Part shown: positions 6,278-31,469 of the stretch, one piece after another
Numbering within the stretch: the first letter of the stretch is position 1
Layout: each line of letters opens with the position of its first letter
Virus record (IMG/VR): IMGVR_UViG_3300005563_000074
Span: 1 to 32,462 of that record
Strand: one strand, 5' to 3'
DNA: 32,462 nucleotides
Source of the DNA: a virus
The notes under the pieces: model-generated
Told to the model about the DNA's origin: nothing
Seen by the model: the letters and a program-made list of their open reading frames with translations, nothing else
Databases searched by the model: none
Position numbers and translations under genes: made by a program

Positions 6278-6679
6278 TCAGTTCCCCATGGGTACGTTGG
6301 CCGCCGCAGCTTGCGCTTTCACGGTCGTCACCAACTTTGAGATGTTGTTGTACACCACCGTAGCGTTGACCTGATCGTCGTTCTTCACGAACTCACGAAG
6401 CTGGGCCAAGTAAGGCGGAATTTGACGCGTATACACCTGCACAGCGCCAATCTGCTTTTCGCAGTCAGTGTTGATCAGGCGTTGGGCACAGCTTTGCTTC
6501 CACGTGTTCAAGCCAGCGAACACGAGGGTGGTTGCCGCCTCCAGCTGATTGAGGCGCGTTTTGGTCACCGGGTTGGCCACCGATGCGGTGCCAATGCTGA
6601 TGACGTCCTGAAGCTTCTGAAGCTGGGCACAACCACCCAGCGACAGGGTTACCAGAGCTACTGCAAGAAGTTTCTTCAC
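6278..6679 (-). CDS. Phage lipoprotein in the lysis cluster (possible outer-membrane spanin role)
   Basis: 133 residues from GTG 6679, which overlaps the holin stop as GTGA. The N-terminus MKKLLAVALVTLSLGGC is a type II signal peptide with lipobox LGGC (C17), so the mature protein is lipid-anchored. The mature part is mostly helical, with two further cysteines (SCAQ, DCEK) about ten residues apart and a long helix (YLAQLREFVKNDDQVNATVV). The position right after endolysin and holin would suit an outer-membrane spanin. However, 133 residues with little proline is atypical for Rz1, so the spanin role is only a suggestion. The lipoprotein call itself is firm. Confidence 0.75.
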   Translation of the reverse strand: MKKLLAVALVTLSLGGCAQLQKLQDVISIGTASVANPVTKTRLNQLEAATTLVFAGLNTWKQSCAQRLINTDCEKQIGAVQVYTRQIPPYLAQLREFVKNDDQVNATVVYNNISKLVTTVKAQAAAANVPMGN

Positions 6680-16714: not shown

Positions 16715-17164
16715 TCAAGCAGCCTTTTTGACACGTTCAGTTAGAAGTTTTTCCATATCCTCGCGAAAGAGGACGAAACGGCACCCGGTATGTCGGGCAT
16801 TGTCAGTGGGACCGTAAAACCTACGCTGAACGCCTTCGTATTTGAAGCCAAAAAGCCCTGCACCAAGCTTCTTAAGAAGATAAGCCGGACGTTTGGGCAC
16901 AATAACGGTACATCTGGCTAGACGCAACTCATAAAGCGCGATGCGTGTCAATCCACGGACTATTCCGGGGGTGACCGTCCACTTCCCGTAATAGGATAGA
17001 TCAGCATTGGCATAGTTGTAGGATGAAAAGATGGCCGCACCCACCAACTGCCCGTCATCAATGATGCCCAAGGCCCGGCTGAACTGAATCGGCACTTTAT
17101 TGTACTCTTGGAAGGCCCAAGCAGCCACGTGAGCGTCAGCGTCAAGCAAAATTCCCTTGGTCAT
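16715..17164 (-). CDS. GNAT-fold-like protein in the virion operon
   Basis: 149 residues, ATGA overlap with the upstream gene. The layout resembles a GNAT acetyltransferase: a central strand ALGIIDDGQLVGAAIFSSY (residues 31-49), then VTPGIVRGLTRIALYELRL, a helix preceded by a short loop where the acetyl-CoA pyrophosphate would bind, and a late FGFKYEGVQRRFYG strand. The canonical QxxGxG/A loop is not intact, so catalytic activity is doubtful. Acetyltransferase-like proteins occur in the internal-core or tail cluster of several short-tailed phages, where they may be structural. The fold assignment is by eye. Confidence 0.55.
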   Translation of the reverse strand: MTKGILLDADAHVAAWAFQEYNKVPIQFSRALGIIDDGQLVGAAIFSSYNYANADLSYYGKWTVTPGIVRGLTRIALYELRLARCTVIVPKRPAYLLKKLGAGLFGFKYEGVQRRFYGPTDNARHTGCRFVLFREDMEKLLTERVKKAA

Positions 17165-18822
17165 ATAAAACCTCCCATTTCAAGGATGGCATTGAAGGCG
17201 TTGACTCGCAAAACTACCTTGGTTTGATCCAATCCAGTGTCAAACGTGGCAGTGTCAAATTCTGAGAAGTCAAAAATGGCGACACTTTCGTCCACATTGA
17301 CGGCACTAACGTTCACAGTCATGTGGACAGCCAGTGCGTGCCCCAGTGCTTGAGCACTGAGCCAGTTTGTCGTCTGGACCAGCTGGCCAAACCACACTGA
17401 AGTATCCCAAATGGCTTCGTCCCACAGCGCACCGCCGTTCAAGATCTGAACTGGCGCGTTCTGTTGCTGGATTCTGAAGTCAGCGTCCACCGACAAGAAA
17501 GGGGTGACGGTCTGACCAGCCGTAATGAAGGGCTGGATAGCCGTCATGCGTTTCACATTGCCCGGCGCGTCGAAATAATTGTACGCCACCTGCATATCCG
17601 CAAGGATGGGCAGGCCAAAATCGGTGCTGCCGGTGAACGCCTTGTTGATGCCACCTGTGTTATCGCCGAAATACAGTTCGTTATTGTAGATTTCGAAGCA
17701 ATTGGCGTTCCAACCAGTGAATTGGCACCATGCGCCCGTGAGCGCGTTCATGACGAACTGAACTTGAGTGGTGTTCTCTACCTGAGGCACGTTTAGAATG
17801 GCCAATGTCTCAGGTGCGTAGCTGATAAGCTGCCACCCGAACAGGTCCTGACCAACTTCAGCCGCATTTGCCATTGCATTCTGAATGCGGGCCGTAATGG
17901 CAACGCTTCGCTCAGAGCTGGGGTCAAATGGCAAGGCCTGTGATAGCGGGATCACGCCTTGTTGCGTGATAATGCCCACATCAGAACCGATTTTAGTAGC
18001 ACAACGAAGACTAATAGGCGGAGACATGTCAAACGTCCCCGCCAATGACCAATTGGTAGCGTCAGTAGGGTCAACACCGCTGAAGATGCTGATCTGACCA
18101 CGGCTTGAGATAAATACCATATAATCTTGCGGACCATTGCCTCCGTCAACCGTCCAATCAGCAATCGCCACAAGGTAGCCGCCCTTCCCCCAGTTGGCAC
18201 CCAGATCAATGGTACCATCAATGGCACCGGTAATGGCATCCGTAGGCATGAATGCCGCCACAGTAGAACCGCCGCCACCGCCATTACTGAGGACGTACCA
18301 CAGTCTGCGCTTCTGAGCATGAATGTTGATAATGGCGGAAGTAGTCAAGCCACCCGGCAAACCGGTGATGGCAGGCACCGACCACGTCGTGCCATTGTAT
18401 TGACGAAGCGTATCAACACCATTGCACAGCTGGATGACAGTTGTTCCAAGGCTGGGGGTGAAATTGGTGTACTGCCATCGAGCTGAGTTGAGCCCGGTCA
18501 CCACTGGGGTAGCAATTGTCGACGTCACATCGTAAATGGTGTCGCCAGCGGCAGCAAACATCTCGTCGCCATCACCATCACGGCGCACCATGAGGGTTTC
18601 AACCGGGATGCTGTTATCAAGAAATGCGTGTGGGAAGAAACCACTGCGCAACTCAACCCAGCCGGGGCGTGGAATCCAGTTATTCAAGATAGGCGCACGC
18701 TTGGGGTCCATGGACGCCAACGGTGAGATGGCATCCCAGCCATCAGTAGGCACAGGAATGACCTTGCTCACCACGTCAGGGGCGGGCGTAGGCACCTTTT
18801 GTATCGTTTTTGTTTTTCTCAT
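17161..18822 (-). CDS. Beta-propeller tail hub / phage stabilisation-like (nozzle) protein
   Basis: 553 residues, ATGA overlap with the upstream gene. The N-terminus carries the segment typical of this group: DGWDAISPLASMDPKRAPIL, NNWIPRPGWVELRSGF, in which genes encode a line like 'D..APLDNWFP....V.LR.GF'. A long series of beta blades follows (LMVRRDGDGDEMFAAAGDTIYDV, VIQLCNGVDTLRQYNGTTW, DYMVFISSRGQISIFSGVD), ending with a beta-rich C-terminal domain. Proteins of this build form the propeller-like nozzle or stabilisation ring at the distal end of a short tail (P22 gp10-like or T7 gp12-like role). It lies after the adaptor and the two zincin genes in transcription order. Confidence 0.75.
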   Translation of the reverse strand: MRKTKTIQKVPTPAPDVVSKVIPVPTDGWDAISPLASMDPKRAPILNNWIPRPGWVELRSGFFPHAFLDNSIPVETLMVRRDGDGDEMFAAAGDTIYDVTSTIATPVVTGLNSARWQYTNFTPSLGTTVIQLCNGVDTLRQYNGTTWSVPAITGLPGGLTTSAIINIHAQKRRLWYVLSNGGGGGSTVAAFMPTDAITGAIDGTIDLGANWGKGGYLVAIADWTVDGGNGPQDYMVFISSRGQISIFSGVDPTDATNWSLAGTFDMSPPISLRCATKIGSDVGIITQQGVIPLSQALPFDPSSERSVAITARIQNAMANAAEVGQDLFGWQLISYAPETLAILNVPQVENTTQVQFVMNALTGAWCQFTGWNANCFEIYNNELYFGDNTGGINKAFTGSTDFGLPILADMQVAYNYFDAPGNVKRMTAIQPFITAGQTVTPFLSVDADFRIQQQNAPVQILNGGALWDEAIWDTSVWFGQLVQTTNWLSAQALGHALAVHMTVNVSAVNVDESVAIFDFSEFDTATFDTGLDQTKVVLRVNAFNAILEMGGFI

Positions 18823-19814
18823 TTGCCTCTAAGTGCCCTGATCGTTTCAGTTACCGGGTCAAACGCATATTGATCAATGTACTTGGTGTCCTGTGTTTCC
18901 CAAGGATGCAGGAGTTTGCGCTCAGCTGGGGTAAAATCTTTACGCTTCTGAACGTTGCGTGCCTCAACCTCACCGGCCGTCTTGTGGTACAAATCATTAG
19001 CTTGACGCTTCAAAGCATCGAAGTCATATGCACCGGACCAGTTAGGGTCAGCGCGCAATTGCTGTTCAAGTTTACTTGCATAGTAATTAGGATTATTGCC
19101 GGGGCTGAAGCCTTCAATCTTCTGAATTGAATGTTGTAGTTCATGCAAGGCAACATCACGTGCTGTGCGCCAGTCAGGGGCATTTACGAATATCTGACCT
19201 TGGTCAGTTAAGTTCATGCCAGAACCAATCGGGTCGCTACTATCCTTGGTCACAGTAAAGCTTTGGCCACGCAACTGCGGATAAGCCTTGTATGCGTCAG
19301 GGTGGTGGAACAACGACTCCAAGCTGCCAATGGCTTTGTCGCCCTCACGCTCGGGCATGTACTTCATGACGCTTTTGTTGTCTGGTATCTCATAGCGCCA
19401 CAAGCGATCGGCAGGGTTGCGGAACCAGTCAGTGCTGGTCCTCACGGCATCAGGCAACATGCCATCCGAGACCATTTGCTCAGCTTTGTTCAAACGACCA
19501 AGATCCGCACCGATGCCGAGCTTGCCGCCAAAGACACCAGCTGCACCAGAAGCAGCCATGGGCGTGCCTACGCCTGCGAGGTCAACGGCAGTGCGCGCTC
19601 CAGCATCATAAAGCGGCGCGTTGGGTTGCACGGCGGCAGGGTTGTCGGTGTAATCCTCACGACGCAAGCCGGGTGTGGCCTGTGTGGCGCTGTCGATGGC
19701 TTTTTTGGGTATGCCCATCAGCGCCTTGACCACCATGGACAAAGCCGTGTCGCTGCCCTCAGGCGTGTTGCCAGCGCCAAACGGCATCATTTCCTGAAGT
19801 GGTACCCCGGCCAT
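18819..19814 (-). CDS. Zincin-like metallopeptidase-domain virion-region protein (HELQH)
   Basis: 331 residues, TAATG junction with the upstream gene. The N-terminal ~100 residues are Ala/Gly-rich with a possible membrane-active part. The C-terminal domain has WFRNPADRLWRYEIPDN, LESLFHHPDAYKAYPQLR, then ALHELQHSIQKIEGF with the zinc motif H224-E-L-Q-H228, and AGEVEARNV (E284 is a candidate third ligand). This order is that of peptidase-like domains I know from large polyvalent phage and mobile-element proteins. It may cleave virion or host proteins on entry, mature another virion protein, or be an ejected effector. It directly follows another HExxH protein. Confidence 0.72.
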   Translation of the reverse strand: MAGVPLQEMMPFGAGNTPEGSDTALSMVVKALMGIPKKAIDSATQATPGLRREDYTDNPAAVQPNAPLYDAGARTAVDLAGVGTPMAASGAAGVFGGKLGIGADLGRLNKAEQMVSDGMLPDAVRTSTDWFRNPADRLWRYEIPDNKSVMKYMPEREGDKAIGSLESLFHHPDAYKAYPQLRGQSFTVTKDSSDPIGSGMNLTDQGQIFVNAPDWRTARDVALHELQHSIQKIEGFSPGNNPNYYASKLEQQLRADPNWSGAYDFDALKRQANDLYHKTAGEVEARNVQKRKDFTPAERKLLHPWETQDTKYIDQYAFDPVTETIRALRGK

Positions 19815-20912: not shown

Positions 20913-21887
20913 TCAGCTTTCATTAGCCCCGGAAGGACCAGGAAAGAATCCATCCTGCACGTTTGCCGGTGAGATGAATACCGGGCTGACACGCTTGTTC
21001 AGCTGCAAGGTAGGTGCAGCCCCATCGCGGCCAATGAGACGGTCCACGTAATCAACCCAGCGGCCTTGCTGAGTGACATAGCTTCCCATGCCTTTGGCTT
21101 CCCAGAACATCCACTTGATGCCCATGATGATGGCCTGATCGTCAAGAAGGGGCTGATCATCATCATTTTCAAAGTATTGGGCGAAGTTGCTGCGGGAACC
21201 ATTGACCATCACCGCGTACAGCGACAGATATTCAAACACCAGCTGTAACGGTGAACTGATCTCATTCGGCGGCGGCCAAATGCGCCAATTGTTGGCGTAG
21301 GGACCGACCTGCCGGAAGTGCCTGCGCGGGCCCGTGGTGACAATACCTGACCGGTGCCACTGATCCATCTGAGGGCTGTCAGGCCCAATCAGTTCCCATT
21401 GGTTGGTGCGGTCCCACATGGTGCGGTTCTGCATCCAGTCCATACCGGGCGGCTCAGGAAAGGTATCCTTGGCGAACGTAAGGTCCACAGCTGCCACCGG
21501 GTCAGCGTTGGTGGCTTCCATGGTCATGGTGACTGTAGTGGCATCGTCCACTGACAGAAGACGAGCCCCCACTGCAATGTCAGTACCTGAGACGGACCAG
21601 TAATTAGCCTCAAGCCCCGCCGTGCTGGGGATGTTGCTGATGATGGGAGTGTAGGACGCTAAGAAATCACCAGTGGTGACGATGGGCACCGGTATCACAA
21701 GATCATACTCAAACTGACACGCGGTCCAGCCCTCAGGGTTGCACCGTCGCAATTCATCAAGCACGCGGTTTGCAAGCGCAAACATCTGCACCGTGGTGGC
21801 GTCTTGATTGCCCACCACGGTGTCAGCTTGAGGAAGCCCAAGTTCTGCTTGGGCTTTCTGTATGATTTGCAGCAACGTAAGCGGCAT
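20913..21887 (-). CDS. Head-tail adaptor (connector) protein
   Basis: 324 residues from ATG 21887, 4 bases after the preceding stop with no clear ribosome site, so probably coupled. The N-terminal helix LLQIIQKAQAELGLPQ and NRVLDELRR, a central beta insertion (SGTDIAVGARLLSVDDATTVTM), FRQVGPYANNWRIWPPP, and a C-terminal helix LLDDQAIIMGIKWMFWEAKG are the pattern of phage adaptor proteins that sit between the portal ring and the tail (P22 gp4 / T7 gp11-like role). I recognise the pattern rather than a named family. It is placed after the head genes and before the nozzle protein, as expected. Confidence 0.7.
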   Translation of the reverse strand: MPLTLLQIIQKAQAELGLPQADTVVGNQDATTVQMFALANRVLDELRRCNPEGWTACQFEYDLVIPVPIVTTGDFLASYTPIISNIPSTAGLEANYWSVSGTDIAVGARLLSVDDATTVTMTMEATNADPVAAVDLTFAKDTFPEPPGMDWMQNRTMWDRTNQWELIGPDSPQMDQWHRSGIVTTGPRRHFRQVGPYANNWRIWPPPNEISSPLQLVFEYLSLYAVMVNGSRSNFAQYFENDDDQPLLDDQAIIMGIKWMFWEAKGMGSYVTQQGRWVDYVDRLIGRDGAAPTLQLNKRVSPVFISPANVQDGFFPGPSGANES

Positions 21888-22278: not shown

Positions 22279-23079
22279 TTAGGCGATTCGGGCACGCGGA
22301 CGCTTGGCCGGTTCAGGCTTCTTAGCCTTGCCCTTAGCCAAATCACGGGTCTTGTGAGTGTCGTTGATCTGCGCCGTCTGCGCATCGAACGGTTGCTGCC
22401 TGCCGGGAGCATACTGCGGGCGGGCACCCTGACGACCACCTTGGTTGGCCATCATGCGTTGAACGTCTTCCATCGTGACGGCGCTGGAATTGCGCTCAAG
22501 CAGCTGTTGAAGCTGGCCCTCAAGCAACTCAATCTTGTGATTGAGGGAGTGGATCTCGCGGTCCTTCTCGTCCAAGGCTGCTTTAAGTTGACTGGCCTTG
22601 ACACCCTTGTTCGCCACCTCGAGGTAGCGCTGAGCGTCATTGACCCAGTTCTGAGCACCCATGCCGATGGTTTCAATGGCGTGGGCTGAGAGCTTGGCGC
22701 ACTGCTCAATGGTGTGAACGCCTGAGGCCTTCAAAGCAGCGCCGATACTCGGGTTGGCAGGGAACAGCATGTCAATGGGCGTGCCATTGGATACCTGCGG
22801 TGCGTTTTCCTTGAATTGCATGAACTGCAACGGGAAGCGCTTCTTGTCGGAGTCATTGGCAAGACGCTCGATGATGTTGAGCCGTTCACCGGGCGGGTGG
22901 ATGCGGACAAACAACTTGTCATCATACTGCGGCGAGCCTTCCTCAGCCGACCTGCCGGGGTTGTGAACCGGCTTCAGAAAGAACATGACAACCATTCCGG
23001 AATCGCCGGGGCCGTAATTTACAACTCCGCCCCAGTCACCCATTTTCTGGATACCAGAATGCGATTGAAAGTCTTCCAT
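22279..23079 (-). CDS. HhH-like and coiled-coil protein of the head region
   Basis: 266 residues from ATG 23079 (AAAGGAG 8 bases upstream). Three parts are seen. Residues 1-100 are a beta-rich domain with conserved-looking DWGGVVNYGPGDSGMV and DKLFVRIHPPGERLNIIERL. Residues about 105-155 have an HhH-like repeat (IGAALKASGVHTIEQCAKLS, AIETIGMGAQNWVNDAQRYL). Residues about 168-200 are a coiled coil (ALDEKDREIHSLNHKIELLEG), followed by a Gln/Lys/Arg-rich basic tail ending in PKRPRARIA-like residues. The basic tail and HhH fit DNA or RNA contact, so an internal head protein or packaging-related factor is possible. I know no named family. Confidence 0.6.
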   Translation of the reverse strand: MEDFQSHSGIQKMGDWGGVVNYGPGDSGMVVMFFLKPVHNPGRSAEEGSPQYDDKLFVRIHPPGERLNIIERLANDSDKKRFPLQFMQFKENAPQVSNGTPIDMLFPANPSIGAALKASGVHTIEQCAKLSAHAIETIGMGAQNWVNDAQRYLEVANKGVKASQLKAALDEKDREIHSLNHKIELLEGQLQQLLERNSSAVTMEDVQRMMANQGGRQGARPQYAPGRQQPFDAQTAQINDTHKTRDLAKGKAKKPEPAKRPRARIA

Positions 23080-23135: not shown

Positions 23136-24551
23136 CTACTTGGCCAGTGTCAAGTTTGCTTCTTGAGCCGGTATGCACTTTTCGAGTTCTACCTTAACAT
23201 TTTGCATCATTCCAGCCCAGTCATGCGGCTTCGGCTGGACGAACTGTCGAACTGACGGATACCACGGACTATCTGCCCTGTCACCAAACCAGCGCCAACA
23301 GCCATCCCAACGGCTAAGTATCCATGTGGGTGCGCCGATTGAAGCCGCTACGTGTGCGACAGCAGTATCCACAGTGATAACCATGTCGCAATTCTTGATG
23401 GCACACGCTGTCTCATAGAAGTCATACATATCCTCGGTGAAGTCACCGATAGTCATGCCGCGCAAGGGTTCCTTGATTTGTTCAGCTGGCGGCCCCTTCT
23501 GAAGGGACACCCAAGTGATGCCCTTGAGCAATGCCAAGGGTGCGAACGTGCTGAGTTCAGTGGACCTAAGGCTGTCGATGGCAGCTGCATGCGGCTGACC
23601 ACTACGTGCCATGCCGGACCAGCACACACCAACCTTCAAACCGGGTGGAAGTTGCTTGAACTTCTCAGCCCAACGAGCAACGTCATGCGATTTGATTGTG
23701 AACTCATGGGAGGAAGGTGGGATGGCCCCCATGTTGGGAGTGAGCATGCCTGCAAGGGTGAGCATGGGCACGCCGTAGTCCAGTTTGGGCAACCGTTCGC
23801 CAACATTGATCACTGCGTAGACATTTCGCATGCTGCTGAGCAGACGGTGAACTGGCGGCCTGCATTCAACGATGACTTTGGCGGTTGGAAACCGTTTAGC
23901 AAGGATGGAAGCGTACCGGGCGAACTGAATAATGTCACCCAAACCTTGCTCACCGTACACAAGGATGGTTTTGCCGCTCAGATCTTCACCCTTCCATTGC
24001 GGGCACTTTAACCCTCGTGGCGGCAGTTGGGCAGTTTTCCATCGCCACTCATACTCAGCCCAACCTTCTTGCAAATGACCGGCTTTCAGTAGCGCCATGG
24101 ACAGGCACAGGTGGCTGTCGGCATAGTTGGGATCAGCGCCAATGGCATTGCGGTAGCACTGGATGGCAACGTTCAACTGACCTTTGTATTTGTAGATGTT
24201 GCCTAGGGTCTGAAAGGTGGCTGCCATGGGGTTGATGGCAATTGCCTTCTCAAGGCAGGGGACGGCTTTTTCAGCGTTGTAAACGTCCCAGTAGGCGCAG
24301 CCTTTGTTGCTGTGAAGGATGGCTGTTTGAACTTCGTCGTTCTCAAGGGCTAGGGCCCTGTCATAGTTCAGTATGGCGTCAAGTGGAAAGCCCATCCCGG
24401 CATATGCCTGACCCCGAGTTGACCATACCCAAGGAAGGTTTTCATCGTATTTCAGTAGTTCGGTGGCCCAAACTGCCATGTCATTCAAGTTGACAGCGGC
24501 ACGTGCTTGCATAAATAGTTCTTTACATTCCTCAAAGCTTTTACGCTGCAT
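23136..24551 (-). CDS. TPR-containing glycosyltransferase (GT9/SPINDLY-like C-terminal domain)
   Basis: 471 residues from ATG 24551 (GAGG 5 bases upstream); the in-frame extension to 24590 runs into the terminator hairpin. The N-terminal ~150 residues contain about four tetratricopeptide repeats (WSTRGQAYAGMGFPLDAILN, GNIYKYKGQLNVAIQCYRNA, ALLKAGHLQEGWAEYEWRW). The C-terminal domain is a glycosyltransferase of the kind fused to TPRs in many Proteobacteria: ILVYGEQGLGDIIQFARY (200-206 core), KVGVCWSG, and near the end TVDTAVAHVAAS (395-400), RWFGDRADSPWYPS. It should transfer a nucleotide-activated sugar to a protein, possibly a capsid or secreted protein encoded nearby. Its position after the decoration gene and before head genes is unusual. 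Confidence 0.85.
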   Translation of the reverse strand: MQRKSFEECKELFMQARAAVNLNDMAVWATELLKYDENLPWVWSTRGQAYAGMGFPLDAILNYDRALALENDEVQTAILHSNKGCAYWDVYNAEKAVPCLEKAIAINPMAATFQTLGNIYKYKGQLNVAIQCYRNAIGADPNYADSHLCLSMALLKAGHLQEGWAEYEWRWKTAQLPPRGLKCPQWKGEDLSGKTILVYGEQGLGDIIQFARYASILAKRFPTAKVIVECRPPVHRLLSSMRNVYAVINVGERLPKLDYGVPMLTLAGMLTPNMGAIPPSSHEFTIKSHDVARWAEKFKQLPPGLKVGVCWSGMARSGQPHAAAIDSLRSTELSTFAPLALLKGITWVSLQKGPPAEQIKEPLRGMTIGDFTEDMYDFYETACAIKNCDMVITVDTAVAHVAASIGAPTWILSRWDGCWRWFGDRADSPWYPSVRQFVQPKPHDWAGMMQNVKVELEKCIPAQEANLTLAK

Positions 24552-24572: not shown

Positions 24573-24605
24573 TAAAAAGAAGGAGGGCACATGGCCCCCC
24601 TTCTT
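24573..24605 (-). terminator. Intrinsic terminator after the decoration-like gene
   Basis: On the - strand the stem AAGAAGG (24605-24599) pairs with CCTTCTT (24583-24577), continued inside by a GGGC/GCCC pairing past one mismatch and a 5-base loop, and followed by TTTTT then A (24578-24573). It lies about 25 bases past the stop of the 191-residue gene and before the TPR-glycosyltransferase start. It probably limits expression of downstream genes relative to the abundant head protein. Confidence 0.72.
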
Positions 24606-24630: not shown

Positions 24631-25206
24631 TTACGCCGAAGCGCCGACCACCGGGTAGTTCAGCACTGCGGTATTCGGGCCAGCGGTAGAGCCGTTGGCT
24701 TGCGAAATCACAAGGCCGTTCACCTGATAGGTGGTGCCGACGCCGCCAGCGGTCGAGCCGACGATGCCTGCCGTGGTGGCGCTCGAATAAAGCTGAGCGT
24801 TCTTGGTGGCGGTAGCTGCGGTCTTCACGTTCGGGGCATTACCCGCACGCTGGACCCAGAAGAACGCGGCAGTCTGCGGAGCTGCCGGGGCCGGGATAGC
24901 AATGCTACCAGTGCCACCGCCAGTTACGCCGATAAGCTGACCAACCGGTGCCGAAGCTGCCGCAATGGTTGCGCCGCCGATGAGGGCAACGGACCATGCG
25001 CCGGGGACGGCGCTGACCACGACCACCGAACCGGGGGCAATGGTAATCGATGCGGTGCAGTAAACCCACTCCGAACCGTCAGTGCCCCAAGCAAGGGTGC
25101 CGGGCAGGAACGGAGGACGCGGGTATTCCGGGGTACCGGAACTGAGCATGAAGACGTCATTGATATCGACGCCTTCCATCGTAGAGGTGTTATAGAGGGT
25201 CGCCAT
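24631..25206 (-). CDS. Head decoration / coat-associated protein
   Basis: 191 residues from ATG 25206 with AGGAG 7 bases upstream. It is beta-rich with small residues: TLAWGTDGSEWVYCTASITI, SVVVVSAVPGAWSVALIGG, AAFFWVQRAGNAPNVKTA, GTTYQVNGLVISQANGST. It shows the composition and length of phage head decoration or minor coat proteins; no unique family motif is recognised. It has its own candidate promoter in the 141-base leader upstream and a terminator downstream, consistent with high expression. The antisense 253-residue frame over it is a shadow. A role as capsid glue or decoration is inference. Confidence 0.65.
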   Translation of the reverse strand: MATLYNTSTMEGVDINDVFMLSSGTPEYPRPPFLPGTLAWGTDGSEWVYCTASITIAPGSVVVVSAVPGAWSVALIGGATIAAASAPVGQLIGVTGGGTGSIAIPAPAAPQTAAFFWVQRAGNAPNVKTAATATKNAQLYSSATTAGIVGSTAGGVGTTYQVNGLVISQANGSTAGPNTAVLNYPVVGASA

Positions 25207-25347: not shown

Positions 25348-26799
25348 TCAGCAACTTGCCAAGGTGAGGTTGCCGCCAGTTAGCAAATTCTTGTTCGTGG
25401 TGCCGCAGCTGATCGTTCCCTGATACGGCCCGCTGCCTGAGCGGATCAAAGCTCCGTTTGCAACCCCGGCCCCGACAGTTGGCACATTCAGTGTAATGGA
25501 CGTGGACGTGGTGGACTGTGAGTATGTCGCCGTGGTCTGCGTAGGAGCAGGGATCGATGACAGGTCACTCAAGTTCCAGACAAAGCTGGCTGCAAATGAA
25601 GTTACGCCACCTTGTACCGGATTGCTGGTATTGATGGCTCCACACGATCCAAAGTTCGAGAACGTATTGACGTTTGAGAAATGCAGGATGGCATTGCCTG
25701 CGGCAGTGCTGCCATTCGTCGTTGCCGTGCCACAGCCGTTCAACTGACCGACAAAGGCCCAGCTTGTGGTCGATGGAAAGCAATCGGTGCAGTCGATGTA
25801 ATTGTTCTGCATCGTGCCAGAGCCGTTGAGCCACGGCGTTTCAATAATAGCGAACCCGTTCGCAATGCCACCACCAAAAGACTGTGTGATAAGCGCCGTA
25901 TTGTTCGAAACGTCCATCGACGAGGCGGAGTTATTGGTGTTGCCTGCCGCTGACAAGATGCTCAAGCCCTGTCCGGCAGCCGAACTAACGTTTGCCAACA
26001 ACAGATTGTAGTTCGTGATCAATGTTGAGTAGTCACCAGCCGGGAAACTTCCATTGCCAAATATCTGTAGAAGATCGCCGTGCTGCGCACAACATTGTGC
26101 GCCCTGCCCGGCATTGGCGAGAATGTTGTACTTGATCGTCAGGTTAGTCCCAGTAGCGGTTGCTCCCAGCTGCAAAAGAACGGCGAACGCATTGCTGATG
26201 TAATTGTACTGGATGACTTGCGTGCCACCACCAAAAACAGAGACTACACCGACGTTGGGTGAGGTCTGGATGCCAGCCCCGTCTATAACGTTGTTCTTGA
26301 TAGTAAAACTGGTGATGGAACTGCCACCGCTTGAGATTGGTGGCAATGCATTCGCCCCAACGACGAACTTGCTGTTTTGAACAACGGTCCCGTTGCCCAT
26401 GGTGAGGCTCCAGCCGCCGCCTACTGAGAAGTCCCATCCGTCAACGACAACACCGGTATTGTTGGTCTGACAAATATGCGTCCCACTTGTGCACGTCATG
26501 CCTGAGGGTGGCGTCGTGACACCGGGTATCTTGGTTGGCGCTGTGGCGTATCCTACAAGATAGTGCACACCAGCCACACACCATGTCGGTGCGTTGGACC
26601 CGTAGGTATTGAGTATCGTAGGAAACTGAGGAGTGCCAGACGGTGCGCCAGCAAACCCGTCACTACCATTCGTAGTGCATGTGCCGGTCACAGCCGTATT
26701 GTTGACTTGAAAACTGGCAAATGCCGCGAGGGCGGCAGATGCTATACAAAGCAGCCCAAGGACCGCTGACACTCTGCGTAGAATTCCAAATAATTTCAC
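25348..26799 (-). CDS. Exported beta-helix (pectate-lyase-like fold) protein
   Basis: 483 residues from GTG 26799 (AAAGG 7 bases upstream). The N-terminus MKLFGILRRVSAVLGLLCIA and following ALAAFA form a Sec signal peptide. The body repeats short strands with Asn ladders: FTIKNNVIDGAG, VIQYNYISNAFA, LTIKYNILANAG, STLITNYNLLLA, MDVSNNTALI, GTMQNNYIDC. This is the pattern of a right-handed parallel beta-helix, a fold common in tailspikes and polysaccharide lyases. Several cysteines (TCTTNG, WCVAG, QCCAQ, CTDCF) suggest disulphides outside the cytoplasm. It could bind or degrade surface polysaccharide. The signal peptide argues against simple virion assembly in the cytoplasm. Confidence 0.74.
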   Translation of the reverse strand: MKLFGILRRVSAVLGLLCIASAALAAFASFQVNNTAVTGTCTTNGSDGFAGAPSGTPQFPTILNTYGSNAPTWCVAGVHYLVGYATAPTKIPGVTTPPSGMTCTSGTHICQTNNTGVVVDGWDFSVGGGWSLTMGNGTVVQNSKFVVGANALPPISSGGSSITSFTIKNNVIDGAGIQTSPNVGVVSVFGGGTQVIQYNYISNAFAVLLQLGATATGTNLTIKYNILANAGQGAQCCAQHGDLLQIFGNGSFPAGDYSTLITNYNLLLANVSSAAGQGLSILSAAGNTNNSASSMDVSNNTALITQSFGGGIANGFAIIETPWLNGSGTMQNNYIDCTDCFPSTTSWAFVGQLNGCGTATTNGSTAAGNAILHFSNVNTFSNFGSCGAINTSNPVQGGVTSFAASFVWNLSDLSSIPAPTQTTATYSQSTTSTSITLNVPTVGAGVANGALIRSGSGPYQGTISCGTTNKNLLTGGNLTLASC

Positions 26800-26802
26800 T
26801 GA

Positions 26803-27603
26803 TCAGCCTTTCAACGCTACGAGCAGACAAGGATACAATTTAGATTGAGCAACAGCACCAGTTATTGTTTCAGTGGTAGAGGTTGCGGTAGCGAGAGCTT
26901 TTGACGCTACCATCAAGATACTCCCGGACGAGGCCTGAGTTACCAGAGCCCTCGAAGTCATATCTGATGGCACGGCTAGGGTGCCGAGAGTCGTCACGTC
27001 GTCAGTCATCATAATCAAGAGGAGAACATCTGGCGACGAGGCGTTGGAAAGTGAGCCCGTGGCTGGGCATAGGATGTTTGTGGTCACACCGTTGGGTGTT
27101 GTGGTGGATGCAGCATCCACCGGAGTCGTCGCATTGGTACCTGTGAAATTCGCTATCACCCACGAATTGAAGACGTTATTGACCCAGCTAAAGGTATAGG
27201 CGCACGTCTCACCACCACCAACAACATGCCAATACCATGCGTAATAGCTGCCCAAGGAGGTTTGTGAGGTACCGAGCTGCGTCCATCCAGCCGGTGGGGT
27301 AATCGTGTCACTGGTTTCATTGTATAACTGGATGCCAACGATATTCGTCGTCCCAGCTGTCAACGTTCCGCAAGCTACCCCTACTGATGTCGACCCCACC
27401 GACGTGGATGTTCCTTGCGGTGGGAAGGCATTGCCCTGATAAGCGACCCAGTTGAAGGCAGGTGTGCCGCCTGCTGGTGTGGCATCAAGCGCAGCCCGGC
27501 TCTGGAACGTACCGGGCGGGAAGCCCGGTACCATGGGTGATTGAGCAGCGGCCTGCACGCATAGCAGGAGCCCGCAAAGAAGTGCGAAGACTGCCTTACG
27601 CAT
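26803..27603 (-). CDS. Exported beta-rich protein of unknown function
   Basis: 266 residues from ATG 27603, in a TAATG overlap with the upstream gene; the extension to 27624 lacks support. MRKAVFALLCGLLLCVQAAA is a signal peptide cleaved near AAA-QS. The mature protein is Ser/Thr/Gly-rich and beta: ACGTLTAGTTNIVGIQLYNE, TPPAGWTQLGTSQTSLGSYY, AWYWHVVGGGETCAYTFSW. The PPAGWTQLG...YAWYWHVVGGGET run resembles the concanavalin-like or fibronectin-like domain commonly found in phage and secreted bacterial surface proteins (recollection of pattern, not a search). It is the fourth of five consecutive exported products. It may be surface-displayed or carbohydrate binding; function unproven. Confidence 0.66.
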   Translation of the reverse strand: MRKAVFALLCGLLLCVQAAAQSPMVPGFPPGTFQSRAALDATPAGGTPAFNWVAYQGNAFPPQGTSTSVGSTSVGVACGTLTAGTTNIVGIQLYNETSDTITPPAGWTQLGTSQTSLGSYYAWYWHVVGGGETCAYTFSWVNNVFNSWVIANFTGTNATTPVDAASTTTPNGVTTNILCPATGSLSNASSPDVLLLIMMTDDVTTLGTLAVPSDMTSRALVTQASSGSILMVASKALATATSTTETITGAVAQSKLYPCLLVALKG

Positions 27604-29189
27604 TAGGTGAACTTTCCATAGCAAGTGACGATAACGTTAGCCCCGGTGGTGACCTTCCACGCACCAGCGGTGCTGACTGCGCCTACCGGTACTGAGATCG
27701 GAACTAAATTCGAGGTAGAACTTGAACCACCTGCGAACGCAATGGCATTCGTGCCAGCCGCGTTCGTGTTGTCAAATACAGTCACAACACCCGGTGAGGT
27801 CGTGACAGGGTAGATGACACAATGCGACAGGTAGTCACCGGTAGCGCCAGTAGGACCGAGAACTTGAGCGGTCTGAGATGCCGCCACGGTTTCGTAACCA
27901 CTTGCACCACTGATGACCTTCTGATTTCCAGCAGTGTCAGTCGCAAGGGTGCGGGCATTGGTGCCGTCAGAACCTGCTATCAGATTTGGATTGCCGCTGA
28001 CCGCTGCGCCATTGGCAGCGTTGCCCTTGACAGCTACCGCCGCCTGATCGCTTGCAATGACCACAGGCGAAGAGCTGGCCGACACCGCCGAACCGTTAGC
28101 GTTCGTGTTGGTCACGAAGGCGTTGACGGCAAGGGCATTCAGGCCGGTTGGCGTGGTGCCGTATGCAGTCGAACGCATCGCCACCATGTTGGTGCCGTCA
28201 CTCATGCCAACTGCGGTGCCGGGGGTCGGGAAGGCCGAACCAAAGTTGGAGCTCGTGCCACCCGCCGCCGCGCCCGCCGCCGTATTGACTTTGAGGTAGC
28301 CGTTTGCGTCCAGCTGAAGCGATGATTGCTGGGTGTTGGTCAAGGTCAGCGGGGTGGAGTTGAACACGCCGCCTGTCAGGAACGAGTTGGCCGCTGCGGT
28401 ACCAGCATTCTTGGTACCTTGGAAGGTCAACAAGTCAACCATGGAGCCAGTGGCGAATGCACCAGATGCATATGCGCCAGAAGCCACAGCACCTGAGGCA
28501 AAGGCACCGCTTGCAATTGAGCCCGATGCATAGGCACCGGATGCCACTGATCCCGAAACCATAGTGGGGGCCGTAGTGAGCCGGTTCGATGCGTCAACGT
28601 TGACACCGCGCTCGTTGCCAGCCGCGTCACGGATGGTTCCGTACAAGTTGCGGTTGGCGCTCATACGCAAGAAGCCGAAGTTATTTTCGGTGATTGCGGT
28701 GGGCGAGGTATCGTCGAACACAGCCGCGTTGGCGGCGTTAATGCCGGTATTGGCTGAGGCCGAGTTCATCGTGGAAACGGGCACGGTGCCCGATTGAATG
28801 AACAGGGGCGTCATGGACGCAATACCCTGCACCGTCTGCACGCCTGCCGCAGCCGCGCCAGCGGTGCCGCTGCCAGTGATCAGCCAAGGAGTGGTGTTCG
28901 CGGTGTTGCCGGGCTGAACGGTCCACGTACCTGACTGGGTGGCCGCTACAGTACCCGAGACAGGCTGTGTGGTGGCCGAAGCGTCAACCTTGAGGGCTCC
29001 ACCCGCACTGACGGACCCGCACTGTGCGGGCGTCGTAAGGTCACACAAAAACATCTGAACGTAGTGAATGCCGCCTACGGTCACCGAACCAAACGTGGTT
29101 CCTGCGCCTTGCGTCATCGCGTAGTTGCCCAAGGCCGCCGCAGAGCAGAGGCCAATCAAGGCAACTAATGAGAGTAGAAACTTGCGCAT
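27603..29189 (-). CDS. Exported repeat-rich fiber-like protein
   Basis: 528 residues from ATG 29189 (GGAG 6 bases upstream; extension to 29228 rejected). MRKFLLSLVALIGLCSAAALG is a signal peptide. The mature protein has an N-terminal beta domain (FGSVTVGGIHYVQMFLCDL), TVAATQSGTWTVQPGN-type fiber repeats, then eight five-residue units of the SGAYA type, and a large beta-rich C-terminal half (QLDANGYLKVNTAAG, PVVIASDQAAVAVKG, GVVTVFDNTNAAGTNAIAFA). The TWTVQPGN and SSPVVIASDQ phrases occur in putative phage structural proteins. It is the largest protein of the exported block and probably a trimeric fiber or surface layer component. Whether it reaches the virion is open. Confidence 0.68.
   Translation of the reverse strand: MRKFLLSLVALIGLCSAAALGNYAMTQGAGTTFGSVTVGGIHYVQMFLCDLTTPAQCGSVSAGGALKVDASATTQPVSGTVAATQSGTWTVQPGNTANTTPWLITGSGTAGAAAAGVQTVQGIASMTPLFIQSGTVPVSTMNSASANTGINAANAAVFDDTSPTAITENNFGFLRMSANRNLYGTIRDAAGNERGVNVDASNRLTTAPTMVSGSVASGAYASGSIASGAFASGAVASGAYASGAFATGSMVDLLTFQGTKNAGTAAANSFLTGGVFNSTPLTLTNTQQSSLQLDANGYLKVNTAAGAAAGGTSSNFGSAFPTPGTAVGMSDGTNMVAMRSTAYGTTPTGLNALAVNAFVTNTNANGSAVSASSSPVVIASDQAAVAVKGNAANGAAVSGNPNLIAGSDGTNARTLATDTAGNQKVISGASGYETVAASQTAQVLGPTGATGDYLSHCVIYPVTTSPGVVTVFDNTNAAGTNAIAFAGGSSSTSNLVPISVPVGAVSTAGAWKVTTGANVIVTCYGKFT
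28437..28556. repeat. Eight 15-base tandem units encoding SGxxA pentapeptides
   Basis: On the - strand the codons read SGSVA, SGAYA, SGSIA, SGAFA, SGAVA, SGAYA, SGAFA, TGSMV. The DNA units differ at many third positions, so the periodicity is kept at protein level. Such five-residue repeats with a small-small-x-x-Ala pattern suit a thin helical or fibrous stalk. Confidence 0.75.
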
Positions 29190-29200
29190 GATTGTCTCCG

Positions 29201-29425
29201 TTACATTCCTAACATGGGAAGGGGGCATCCTGCTGATGCGTCAATTACGCCCGTACCGCAATTAACCGGAGGCGGCGCTGTGCCGCTGCCGATACCGCCA
29301 GTGAGCGGGAAGCGACCCGTAAAGCCGTATTGGTTGGTACGGCCCAACCTTCCTGAGATGTCAGAGCCCGCAGAGGCTATCGCTGATAGCCCCAGTATGA
29401 GAAGTAATGCGAGCCAATACCTCAT
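29201..29425 (-). CDS. Small exported protein
   Basis: 74 residues from ATG 29425, in a TAATG overlap with the upstream gene. MRYWLALLLILGLSAIASAG is a signal peptide cleaved near ASA-G. The mature ~54 residues include RLGRTNQYGFTGRFPLTGG, a Gly/Pro-rich linker and two cysteines (NCGTG, GCPLP) that could form one disulphide. No family is recognised. It belongs to the exported block and may be a small periplasmic or surface partner of the larger fiber-like protein that follows 11 bases later. Confidence 0.6.
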   Translation of the reverse strand: MRYWLALLLILGLSAIASAGSDISGRLGRTNQYGFTGRFPLTGGIGSGTAPPPVNCGTGVIDASAGCPLPMLGM

Positions 29426-29799
29426 TAGGAGTTTGCCGTTCCTTGCACGAAGCTAATTGTGCCCGTGCCGCCTGAAATGACTGCGAAATACAAACCACTG
29501 ATGCCAACATTCAACACCACGAAGCTATTGGCGGGAAGCAGGAGGTCAGTGAGCAATGCTGTGGTGTTGCTGGCAGTGCCAAGGCGGTAGCGCACGTCAC
29601 TGGCTGAGTTGTTGTAGACGATGACCGTCTCACCGCACGTGCTCATGCGGCGGTTAGTTGAGACACCTGAGAATGAAACGTCAGCCGGTTGGGCTGAGAT
29701 CACACAAGGCGTGATGCCTAGCTGAGGGGCGCTGAAAGCTGGCAACACCCATGTCAGGAAAATGATGGAAGCCAATAGTGCCGAAAGGGATCGTTTCAC
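29425..29799 (-). CDS. Small exported beta-rich protein
   Basis: 124 residues from GTG 29799 (GGAGAG 6 bases upstream, GTGA overlap with the upstream stop). MKRSLSALLASIIFLTWVLP plus AFSA is a signal peptide. The mature part is about 100 residues of beta strands: CVISAQPADVSFSGVST, CGETVIVYNNSASDVRYRLG, LLPANSFVVLNVGISGLYFA. The TVIVYNNSASDVRYRLG...LLPANS pattern looks like a compact beta-sandwich of the kind seen as small phage-encoded head or stalk-tip domains. Two cysteines (PCV, TCG) may pair. It is the first of the exported block after the coiled-coil protein. Confidence 0.62.
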   Translation of the reverse strand: MKRSLSALLASIIFLTWVLPAFSAPQLGITPCVISAQPADVSFSGVSTNRRMSTCGETVIVYNNSASDVRYRLGTASNTTALLTDLLLPANSFVVLNVGISGLYFAVISGGTGTISFVQGTANS

Positions 29800-30361: not shown

Positions 30362-31393
30362 TTACGCAGTCAGAACGCCCTGAAGGAACGCGTTGCTCAG
30401 GGTCATGTTGCCAGCCCAGCCAATCAGGCGGACCATGGCATCTTGGTTCACTGAGAAACGGTCCGGATCAAGGGGGACCATGTTGCGGCGGGCATGCGGA
30501 CGCCACATGATGTACTTGGTATTGAGGAAGTACATCGTGGTGGACGGTGCACCACCCAGCGCCGAGGTGGACGAGCTCAGCTGCGGCGGCAGCGGGTCCG
30601 AGGCAAAGCCTTGGAAGCCACCGTCCAGCACTACGTCGGCGTTCAGATACTTCAGGGACTGGAAGCCAGCCTCTGCCATATCAGGTGCGCCGTTCTCAAC
30701 TTGGATACGCTGAATGGCCTGAAGGGCATTCAGGTAATAACGGTAGGTCGTGTTGTCCGCGATGATCAGGTCCGGGAAGTCACGGCCACGGATCAGCTTC
30801 ACCCACAGCGCGTCCATTTGCTGCATGATGGTTGCGGACGACAGCACGCTGTTGCCGTCAGTTGCGGCCGACCAAGTCTGGTTCTGCCAGAACTGCCACT
30901 GCGAACGGTCAATGCCGCCCACGGTGCCCGACGACGGCGAGCTGGAAACGAGCAGCTGAAGGCCGCCCACGGAGCCGGTGACCGAACCGTCGCCGTAGAT
31001 GCCCTGTGACAGGCCGTTCATGAACGTATCTTCGGCGTTCATGATGCGCGACTCAAGCAGGTCGATGATGGCCTCTTCACCCGAGTTCTGGAGCTCTTCC
31101 AGACCGCTGATGGAAACGGCAACCGCTGCCTGACGGATCGGGTATTCAGCAGCCGAGAAGACTTGGCTCGGTGCGATGTTGAGGGTCTGGTAACCCGAGT
31201 ACCATTGGTACGTCTGGTTGTCAGCGTAGTTGAGCTCTTGAACGATGGTACGACCACCGCTGAAGGTCTTCACGTTGCCACGGCGACTCAAGCGAAGCAG
31301 GGCGGCGTTGTTGCGGGACATGTTGTCCGCGAGTTCGCCGGTGCGGTTGCGCAGGGTCGTGGTGACAATTTCCGAGAGATTTGGAAATGCCAT
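30362..31393 (-). CDS. Phage major capsid protein
   Basis: 343 residues from ATG 31393 with GGAG 6 bases upstream; the longer start at 31405 has none. The N-terminal part MAFPNLSEIVTTTLRNRTGE, ELADNMSRNNAALLRLSRRG is followed by a GGRTIVQELNYADNQTYQWYSG strand region. A typical P-domain helix then carries AAVAVSISGLEELQNSGEEA, IIDLLESRIMNAEDTFMNGL. The C-terminal half has FPDLIIADNTTYRYYLNALQ and TTMYFLNTKYIMWRPHARRN. This is the order of an HK97-fold capsid subunit of the type found in short-tailed phages of Alphaproteobacteria. It follows a scaffold-type gene, as required for procapsid assembly. The call is by pattern and context and fairly safe. Confidence 0.82.
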   Translation of the reverse strand: MAFPNLSEIVTTTLRNRTGELADNMSRNNAALLRLSRRGNVKTFSGGRTIVQELNYADNQTYQWYSGYQTLNIAPSQVFSAAEYPIRQAAVAVSISGLEELQNSGEEAIIDLLESRIMNAEDTFMNGLSQGIYGDGSVTGSVGGLQLLVSSSPSSGTVGGIDRSQWQFWQNQTWSAATDGNSVLSSATIMQQMDALWVKLIRGRDFPDLIIADNTTYRYYLNALQAIQRIQVENGAPDMAEAGFQSLKYLNADVVLDGGFQGFASDPLPPQLSSSTSALGGAPSTTMYFLNTKYIMWRPHARRNMVPLDPDRFSVNQDAMVRLIGWAGNMTLSNAFLQGVLTA

Positions 31394-31469
31394 AATGGGC
31401 TCCATTGGATCAAGGGGTTGAGGACGCTACGCAACACGTCAACCTAATGGTACCGCTGGAGGATGAGGC

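Follow-up and report, generated by a model that had tools for sequence, protein, structure and literature searches.

The presence of a glycosyltransferase gene in the middle of the head genes of a phage raises the question of which protein such an enzyme would modify, and why it should be found in that place. The window, that is, the whole stretch of DNA that was analysed, is one complete IMG/VR record of 32,462 bases, classed as linear; since contigs of its relatives reach approximately 96 kb, it is probably a fragment of a larger phage genome. The features on which the argument depends are the following, from the highest coordinates down:

30362..31405, minus strand: gene of the major capsid protein (MCP), recognised by phrog_9953 and NF033394; independent phylogenetic marker
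25348..29799, minus strand: five ORFs whose starts resemble signal peptides, a block that varies from relative to relative (ORFs, synteny)
24631..25206, minus strand: gene of a 191-aa protein predicted to decorate the capsid (cement protein), of type A, the most likely acceptor (predicted structure, fold matches in the PDB)
24573..24605, minus strand: intrinsic terminator hairpin between the decoration gene and the enzyme gene, with a 12-bp stem and a T-run (hairpin read; equivalents in 11 relatives)
23136..24551, minus strand: gene of the predicted TPR-GT9 protein glycosyltransferase, 471 aa (ORF, Pfam models, AlphaFold2 model, fold alignment)
22279..23079, minus strand: conserved head-region gene, phrog_20268, which closes the slot occupied by the enzyme (PHROGs, synteny of relatives)
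20913..21887, minus strand: gene of a tail-protein family, phrog_6013, conserved downstream (PHROGs, synteny)
17161..18822, minus strand: phrog_5107 gene, in place of the amidase gene of Mx8 and the putative head-closure gene of Mx9 (PHROGs, comparison with both phages)

The preliminary description of this DNA placed an ORF for a TPR-glycosyltransferase among head genes, between a decoration-like gene and head-completion genes, and this has been borne out: the coordinates are right, the gene lies on the minus strand, its position is kept in many contigs, and its flanks are the gene at 24631-25206 on one side and those at 22279-23079, 20913-21887 and 17161-18822 on the other. The start is the ATG at 24551 (MQRK...), which is common to the relatives, and the stop lies at 23136; the mechanically called ORF begins earlier, with a GTG at 24590. 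Full-length homologues with 55-66% identity occupy the same position in many contigs, and dN/dS is approximately 0.08-0.16 among comparable pairs (L003-L006 and their comparisons with L085; the window is saturated against most relatives), indicative of purifying selection. Both facts imply that the enzyme is more than a product of chance. The PHROGs search assigned no function to the enzyme itself, which consists of two parts:

24033..24551, minus strand: residues 1-173, the TPR part with its five helical hairpins, which presumably binds the acceptor (AlphaFold2 model, VIA alignment)
23172..23996, minus strand: GT9-fold catalytic domain, residues 186-460 (AlphaFold2 model, fold alignment, motifs, profile search)

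The model obtained with AlphaFold2 on an alignment of 84 sequences (pLDDT 95.4) has ten helices, arranged as the five TPR hairpins, followed by a GT-B domain, and Pfam models of the TPR match residues 40-160 approximately (TPR_11, 2e-15). The "full TPR array" of the preliminary description is thus an array indeed, but a short one. The Glyco_transf_9 model (PF01075) passes marginally, with 22.1 bits against a cut-off of 22.0 over residues 380-409, which cover 30 of its 247 positions (21.6 bits for the enzyme alone and 24.5 with its neighbours). The fold is more telling: in VIA alignments the catalytic domain resembles the Veillonella GT9 protein 3tov (Z 18.6, 253 residues, 3.2 Å), followed by WaaF (Z 17.5), WaaC and TibC (Z of approximately 16 each). 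Residues that an active enzyme should have are conserved, namely GEQGLGD (200-206, kept as GEQGxGD), R329-S330, Q351, VDTAVAH (394-400, kept as VDTxxxH), WRW (419-421) and WYP (430-432). The nucleotide-sugar motif D-T-x-x-x-H is present, VDTAVAH being aligned with VDTGLSH of WaaC; among the 84 homologues H400 is invariant, and T396 and D395 are mostly kept. The structure prediction that had been proposed as a check on the catalytic part therefore yields a GT9 fold with a nucleotide-sugar motif.

The same domain had been called GT9/SPINDLY-like, and here the two halves of the label fare differently. With the whole enzyme, the top Foldseek matches are SPINDLY and OGT, with an rmsd of about 14-20 Å over the whole chain, because the TPR + GT architecture is common to both. 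A full-length search of the PDB sequences is dominated by TPR matches and does not classify the catalytic domain, which was therefore searched alone: its profile weakly matches WaaC and WaaF (E 0.3-1.1) and, with E allowed up to 10, retrieves neither an OGT nor a SPINDLY chain. Hence the likeness to OGT and SPINDLY (GT41) is one of architecture, a TPR array joined to a GT-B domain, whereas their catalytic domain is unmatched by sequence and the array of the phage enzyme is much shorter; judged by its best fold matches in the predicted model, the catalytic domain is heptosyltransferase-like (GT9). WaaC, WaaF and TibC, on the other hand, share the catalytic fold (Z 16-19) and, in WaaC, the aligned VDTxxxH motif, but they have no TPR part, and WaaC and WaaF act on LPS and TibC on an autotransporter.

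The complete build, an N-terminal TPR part and a C-terminal GT-B domain without a signal peptide, is that described for FlmG of Caulobacter. In FlmG the TPR part binds flagellins, and the GT part alone neither binds them nor sufficiently modifies them (PMC7591256); both enzymes combine TPR and GT-B in one cytoplasmic chain, which in FlmG serves a self-assembling surface protein (PMC7591256). The phage gene differs in that it lies beside a capsid decoration gene and encodes 471 rather than 596 residues, the likeness being drawn from the description of FlmG; in a Caulobacter control genome the match was to PF01075 only.

The neighbouring 191-aa protein was modelled with a pLDDT of 84.7, and its best Foldseek and VIA matches are capsid decoration or cement chains of tailed viruses: XM1 (Z 9.4), Pam3 (9.3), FCWL1 (8.6) and HFTV1 (8.1), followed by T1, Sf11, phi29 gp8.5 and TW1. 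The earlier wording "decoration-like" is for that reason well founded. A tblastn search of INPHARED gave no match to this protein. The terminator reported just before the enzyme was also recovered, and it is a recurrent feature, given that the junctions between decoration gene and enzyme read in 11 relatives contain a strong hairpin in 11 of 11 cases, with differing sequences and in most cases a T-rich tail (weak in L006, L011 and L091). Such a terminator may lower the expression of the enzyme.

Scanning for the enzyme, for the decoration protein and for the MCP yielded approximately 100 viral contigs of the group. Where the identity of the MCP is about 70% or higher, the enzyme without exception lies downstream of a type A decoration gene (profile score 182-372) and, where the DNA continues, precedes the 22279-like gene. 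This combination was found in 20 contigs, the window included, a count that contains near-identical contigs (L013/L014 and L084/L085); the type A contigs without the enzyme end right after the decoration gene. Both genes are kept even where they lie 4.5 kb (L086) or 8.5 kb (L093) apart, and in the latter a C-methyltransferase gene and two sugar epimerase-type genes are found between them. The slot holds a GT9 gene and a UDP-galactopyranose-mutase-like gene in L216, and L013 has one further glycosyltransferase.

With the type B decoration gene (profile score of 89 or less) the enzyme is never present, and it was not found elsewhere in the 23 type B contigs that were searched whole. Their slot almost always holds a PF01973 protein instead (Pfam E 1e-10 to 1e-21). 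The profile of these phage proteins matches the PDB chain 5mu5 (E 1.3e-10), an entry labelled uncharacterized, which we take to be the Maf protein of Magnetospirillum. PF01973 is the Maf_flag10 domain of the flagellin Maf glycosyltransferases, now labelled MptE-like by Pfam (PMC11339370). Maf is a protein glycosyltransferase of surface filaments (PMC11339370); it occupies the same slot in type B relatives, but it is unrelated to TPR-GT9 in fold and sequence and is absent from the window. The two were never seen together in one locus among the contigs examined; weak matches of the Maf profile in L013/L014 (E 3e-5) fall on the TPR parts of TPR-GTs and were rejected as TPR cross-hits. The short Maf protein gave no tblastn match in INPHARED. 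In L185 and L190 the slot adds NeuB, a cytidylyltransferase, a DegT aminotransferase and a UDP-GlcNAc 2-epimerase (and a GNAT gene in L185), so that a near-complete nonulosonic-acid set stands beside the Maf_flag10 enzyme within a head-gene cluster (L185:12237-18256 and L190:6804-12885). Contigs of a more distant group, with 57-61% MCP identity, have a longer Maf protein, which carries a methyltransferase domain in three of the four scanned, FkbM in two of them.

The slot can also be filled by neither enzyme, as in the type B contigs L203, L214 and L244. INPHARED contains no record above 60% MCP identity to the window, and the phages nearest to it that carry a TPR-GT are MW202512-like. The cultured kin are Mx8-like podoviruses (Mx8, Mx9, BUCT555 and ppBjS10J-1) with a homologous MCP (45-53%). 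Mx8 and Mx9 share the order MCP, structural protein, p50, tail, amidase/head closure and acyltransferase; these podoviruses differ in that their slot is without an annotated glycosylation enzyme, and in Mx8, Mx9 and BUCT555 the core gene order was found with no annotated slot enzyme. Given these contigs and cultured phages, the slot enzyme is an optional addition, and glycosylation is inessential to the group.

Whether the type of decoration protein and the type of enzyme move together was asked of the trees after the data had been seen. On the MCP tree, the enzyme-bearing L011 lies inside a clade without the enzyme, and L185 and L190, which lack it, lie inside an enzyme-bearing clade; L011 is again among rows lacking the enzyme in the trees of the 20913-like and 17161-like genes, and L185 and L190 are among enzyme-bearing rows in the former. 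A single enzyme-bearing clade on the MCP tree is rejected (p-AU 3.5e-9). On the decoration tree, in contrast, all enzyme-bearing rows are on one side of one branch (92/96), the only other rows on that side being contigs whose DNA stops short of the slot or whose enzyme is partial. Read from these trees, the pair appears to have switched together about three to four times, and at least three times by the MCP trees, a figure that represents only three to four independent switches in a group named after the data had been seen. The independent-pair test was concordant in three of three pairs, a number with which a sign test cannot attain 0.05.

A second line of evidence is the covariation of the TPR part with the decoration protein. 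Over 18 loci, and given the divergence of the GT domain, the divergences of the two are correlated (partial r 0.34, permutation p 0.001; 0.33-0.69 in subsets), and the reverse correlation is absent from the same test. The corresponding TPR signal for the 22279-, 20913-, MCP- and 17161-like genes ranges from -0.05 to 0.30, the first two showing weaker covariation of the same kind. This test, too, was devised after the data had been seen, and partial Mantel tests have a known tendency to be liberal; this moderate, post hoc covariation is suggestive of a TPR part that changes with the decoration protein as its acceptor.

With respect to origin, the comparison with bacterial homologues that had been proposed places the enzymes of the phage group in one clade (98) within mainly proteobacterial TPR-GTs, and Bradyrhizobium is nearest with weak support (82). 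Among cultured phages, the one nearest by MCP is a Bradyrhizobium phage. A second phage lineage, of MW202512-like phages whose MCP belongs to a different family (phrog_334), has TPR-GTs that form a separate clade (100); they too lie in the head cluster, and methyltransferase and virion genes are often nearby. In MW202512 itself (L002:19284-22717), a podovirus from Manatee Spring, the TPR-GT follows the MCP gene, and next come genes annotated as endonuclease, FkbM methyltransferase and galT-like, and then that of a stabilisation protein. Since the two lineages have separate clades, there seem to have been at least two entries of TPR-GTs into the head clusters of phages. On the bacterial side, at least 10 of 22 flagellin-bearing genomes have a TPR-GT homologue within 10 kb of a flagellin gene; by chance, a rough upper bound would be 3-4 genomes, driven by those with many copies, and for the few-copy genomes (7 of the 10) the chance bounds sum to about 0.4. 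Some bacterial loci (L102, L104, L151 and L154) have frames of 2,000-3,600 residues with TPR-GT units in one chain, with a match to the Maf profile in the same chain in L151 and L154, and a Telmatospirillum genome has a frame of 7,454 residues with many GT units.

The reading that we favour, with a probability of roughly 0.6, is that an exchangeable slot here holds an FlmG-like protein glycosyltransferase, with the capsid decoration protein as its substrate; we infer the activity, donor, acceptor, linkage and purpose of the enzyme. The cytoplasmic enzyme, of flagellin-modifying build, would hold in its TPR hairpins the decoration protein made from the gene just upstream, and its GT9-fold domain would transfer to exposed residues of that protein a sugar from a nucleotide sugar presumably supplied by the host, since no sugar-nucleotide gene was recognised in the window. 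The mature head would then bear a glycan coat, which might serve in adsorption, as a shield or to evade recognition. In relatives with the type B decoration gene, the slot is taken by a Maf_flag10 glycosyltransferase, sometimes with its own genes for nonulosonic-acid synthesis.

The preliminary description had left open whether a structural or an exported protein is glycosylated. The co-switching, the presence of a flagellin-type glycosyltransferase in either version of the slot and the TPR covariation favour the former and, as far as sequence comparison goes, point to the decoration protein as the likely acceptor among the structural proteins. The enzyme might instead act on another virion protein, either the MCP or a variable head or fibre-like protein encoded upstream, with the decoration type following by linkage, as adjacent genes can travel together by linkage alone. 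This rather improbable option recalls the mycobacteriophages (Che8 and others, Freeman 2023), whose phage-encoded glycosyltransferases have been linked to virion glycans reported on major capsid and tail tube proteins (as cited in PMC11256854 and PMC12619734, whose passages on them describe no exchangeable slot beside a decoration gene). However, the presence of the enzyme is discordant with the MCP tree, the divergence of the MCP does not follow that of the TPR part in the way seen for the decoration protein, the pair of enzyme and decoration gene persists whereas the block that separates the latter from the MCP gene changes freely, and the pair is retained across the distances seen in L086 and L093. 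The five upstream ORFs, on the same strand, do begin with signal-peptide-like sequences, as the preliminary description held for five exported proteins, and TibC is among the fold matches; enzymes of the TibC type glycosylate their substrates in the cytoplasm before export. Even so, a role in modifying these exported proteins is very improbable: in L084/L085, which are the closest relatives (MCP 96%), enzyme (65%) and decoration gene (82%) are both present, yet four of the five exported ORFs are absent, and with a crude detector no signal-peptide-like ORF was found between MCP and decoration gene in the enzyme-bearing L008, L011, L013, L217, L248, L213 and L211. The check for co-occurrence thus went against the block, missing largely or wholly from L084/L085 and at least seven others, and synteny rules it out as a conserved partner.

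It is also unlikely that the enzyme acts on the host surface, altering its LPS core, its capsule or its flagellin in lysogeny or towards the end of an infection, so as to block superinfection or free the progeny, its position among head genes being incidental. GT9 enzymes do build the LPS core, clusters of sugar genes in jumbo phages have been read as modifying surface polysaccharides (PMC7824862), and host flagellin is a conceivable target because the bacterial homologues are found near flagellin genes; but the place between decoration and head-completion genes is fixed in two unrelated phage lineages, the enzyme switches with the decoration type, and protein-acting Maf enzymes occupy the same slot. 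Phage glycosyltransferases often act on DNA (PMC12619734), and a role in hypermodifying phage bases may be imagined; it is the least probable of all in view of the TPR domain, the head-gene position and the kinship with GT9 and flagellin-type enzymes, and a PHROGs scan of the ORFs of the window, itself a fragment, recognised no base-modifying enzyme.

For the favoured reading, in which the decoration protein is the acceptor, the fact that the type of enzyme changes with the type of decoration protein has a wider implication: phages of this group probably coat their heads with sugar by means of exchangeable enzymes. A bolder and more tentative proposal, to which we give somewhat less than even odds, is that this is a dedicated locus for the glyco-typing of capsids, where a decoration protein and a flagellin-type glycosyltransferase of the FlmG-like or Maf-like kind, accompanied in some cases by nonulosonic-acid synthesis, would form matched pairs that are swapped as cassettes. 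The same head would thereby bear a different sugar coat in each lineage, and the locus would be a viral counterpart of the flagellin glycosylation islands of bacteria.

Phage virion glycosylation has been described already, with glycosylated heads in a small number of mycobacteriophages, and both types of enzyme are known as flagellin glycosylators in bacteria. What appears to be new, as far as the open-access literature shows, is that such enzymes are paired with a decoration gene and that two unrelated ones of flagellin type replace each other; a search for work connecting Maf, NeuB or TPR enzymes with the heads of phages brought up nothing relevant, a weak indication that there is none. In this group the probable enzyme and its probable acceptor lie next to each other, are small and co-vary, and the enzyme comes in two non-homologous versions, which makes the pair well suited to the study of how a phage glycosyltransferase selects its virion acceptor. 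If the favoured reading is correct, phages adopted flagellin-type glycosylation for head coats at least twice, with consequences for adsorption, for the persistence of phages in soil and water and for the immune recognition of phage particles.

A few other observations concern the surroundings of the enzyme. The interval between MCP and decoration gene is an odd place for secreted proteins and is hypervariable, other exported, fibre-like or repeat proteins being found there in L004, L006 and L176. Overlong or partial MCP matches suggest inserts in the MCP gene of several relatives (L216:10001-11425, L247:10001-11126, L248:10001-11068 and L217:4013-5111), and homing-endonuclease-like ORFs occur near the MCP gene in several relatives (e.g. 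L011:5384-5983 and L216:11803-12825). In the window, positions 6278-6679 (minus strand) weakly match the Cor superinfection-exclusion family (phrog_1119, E 5e-4), and positions 18819-19814 (minus strand), between the tail-family and phrog_5107 genes, encode an LPD23 domain of polyvalent proteins (Pfam E 3.4e-12).
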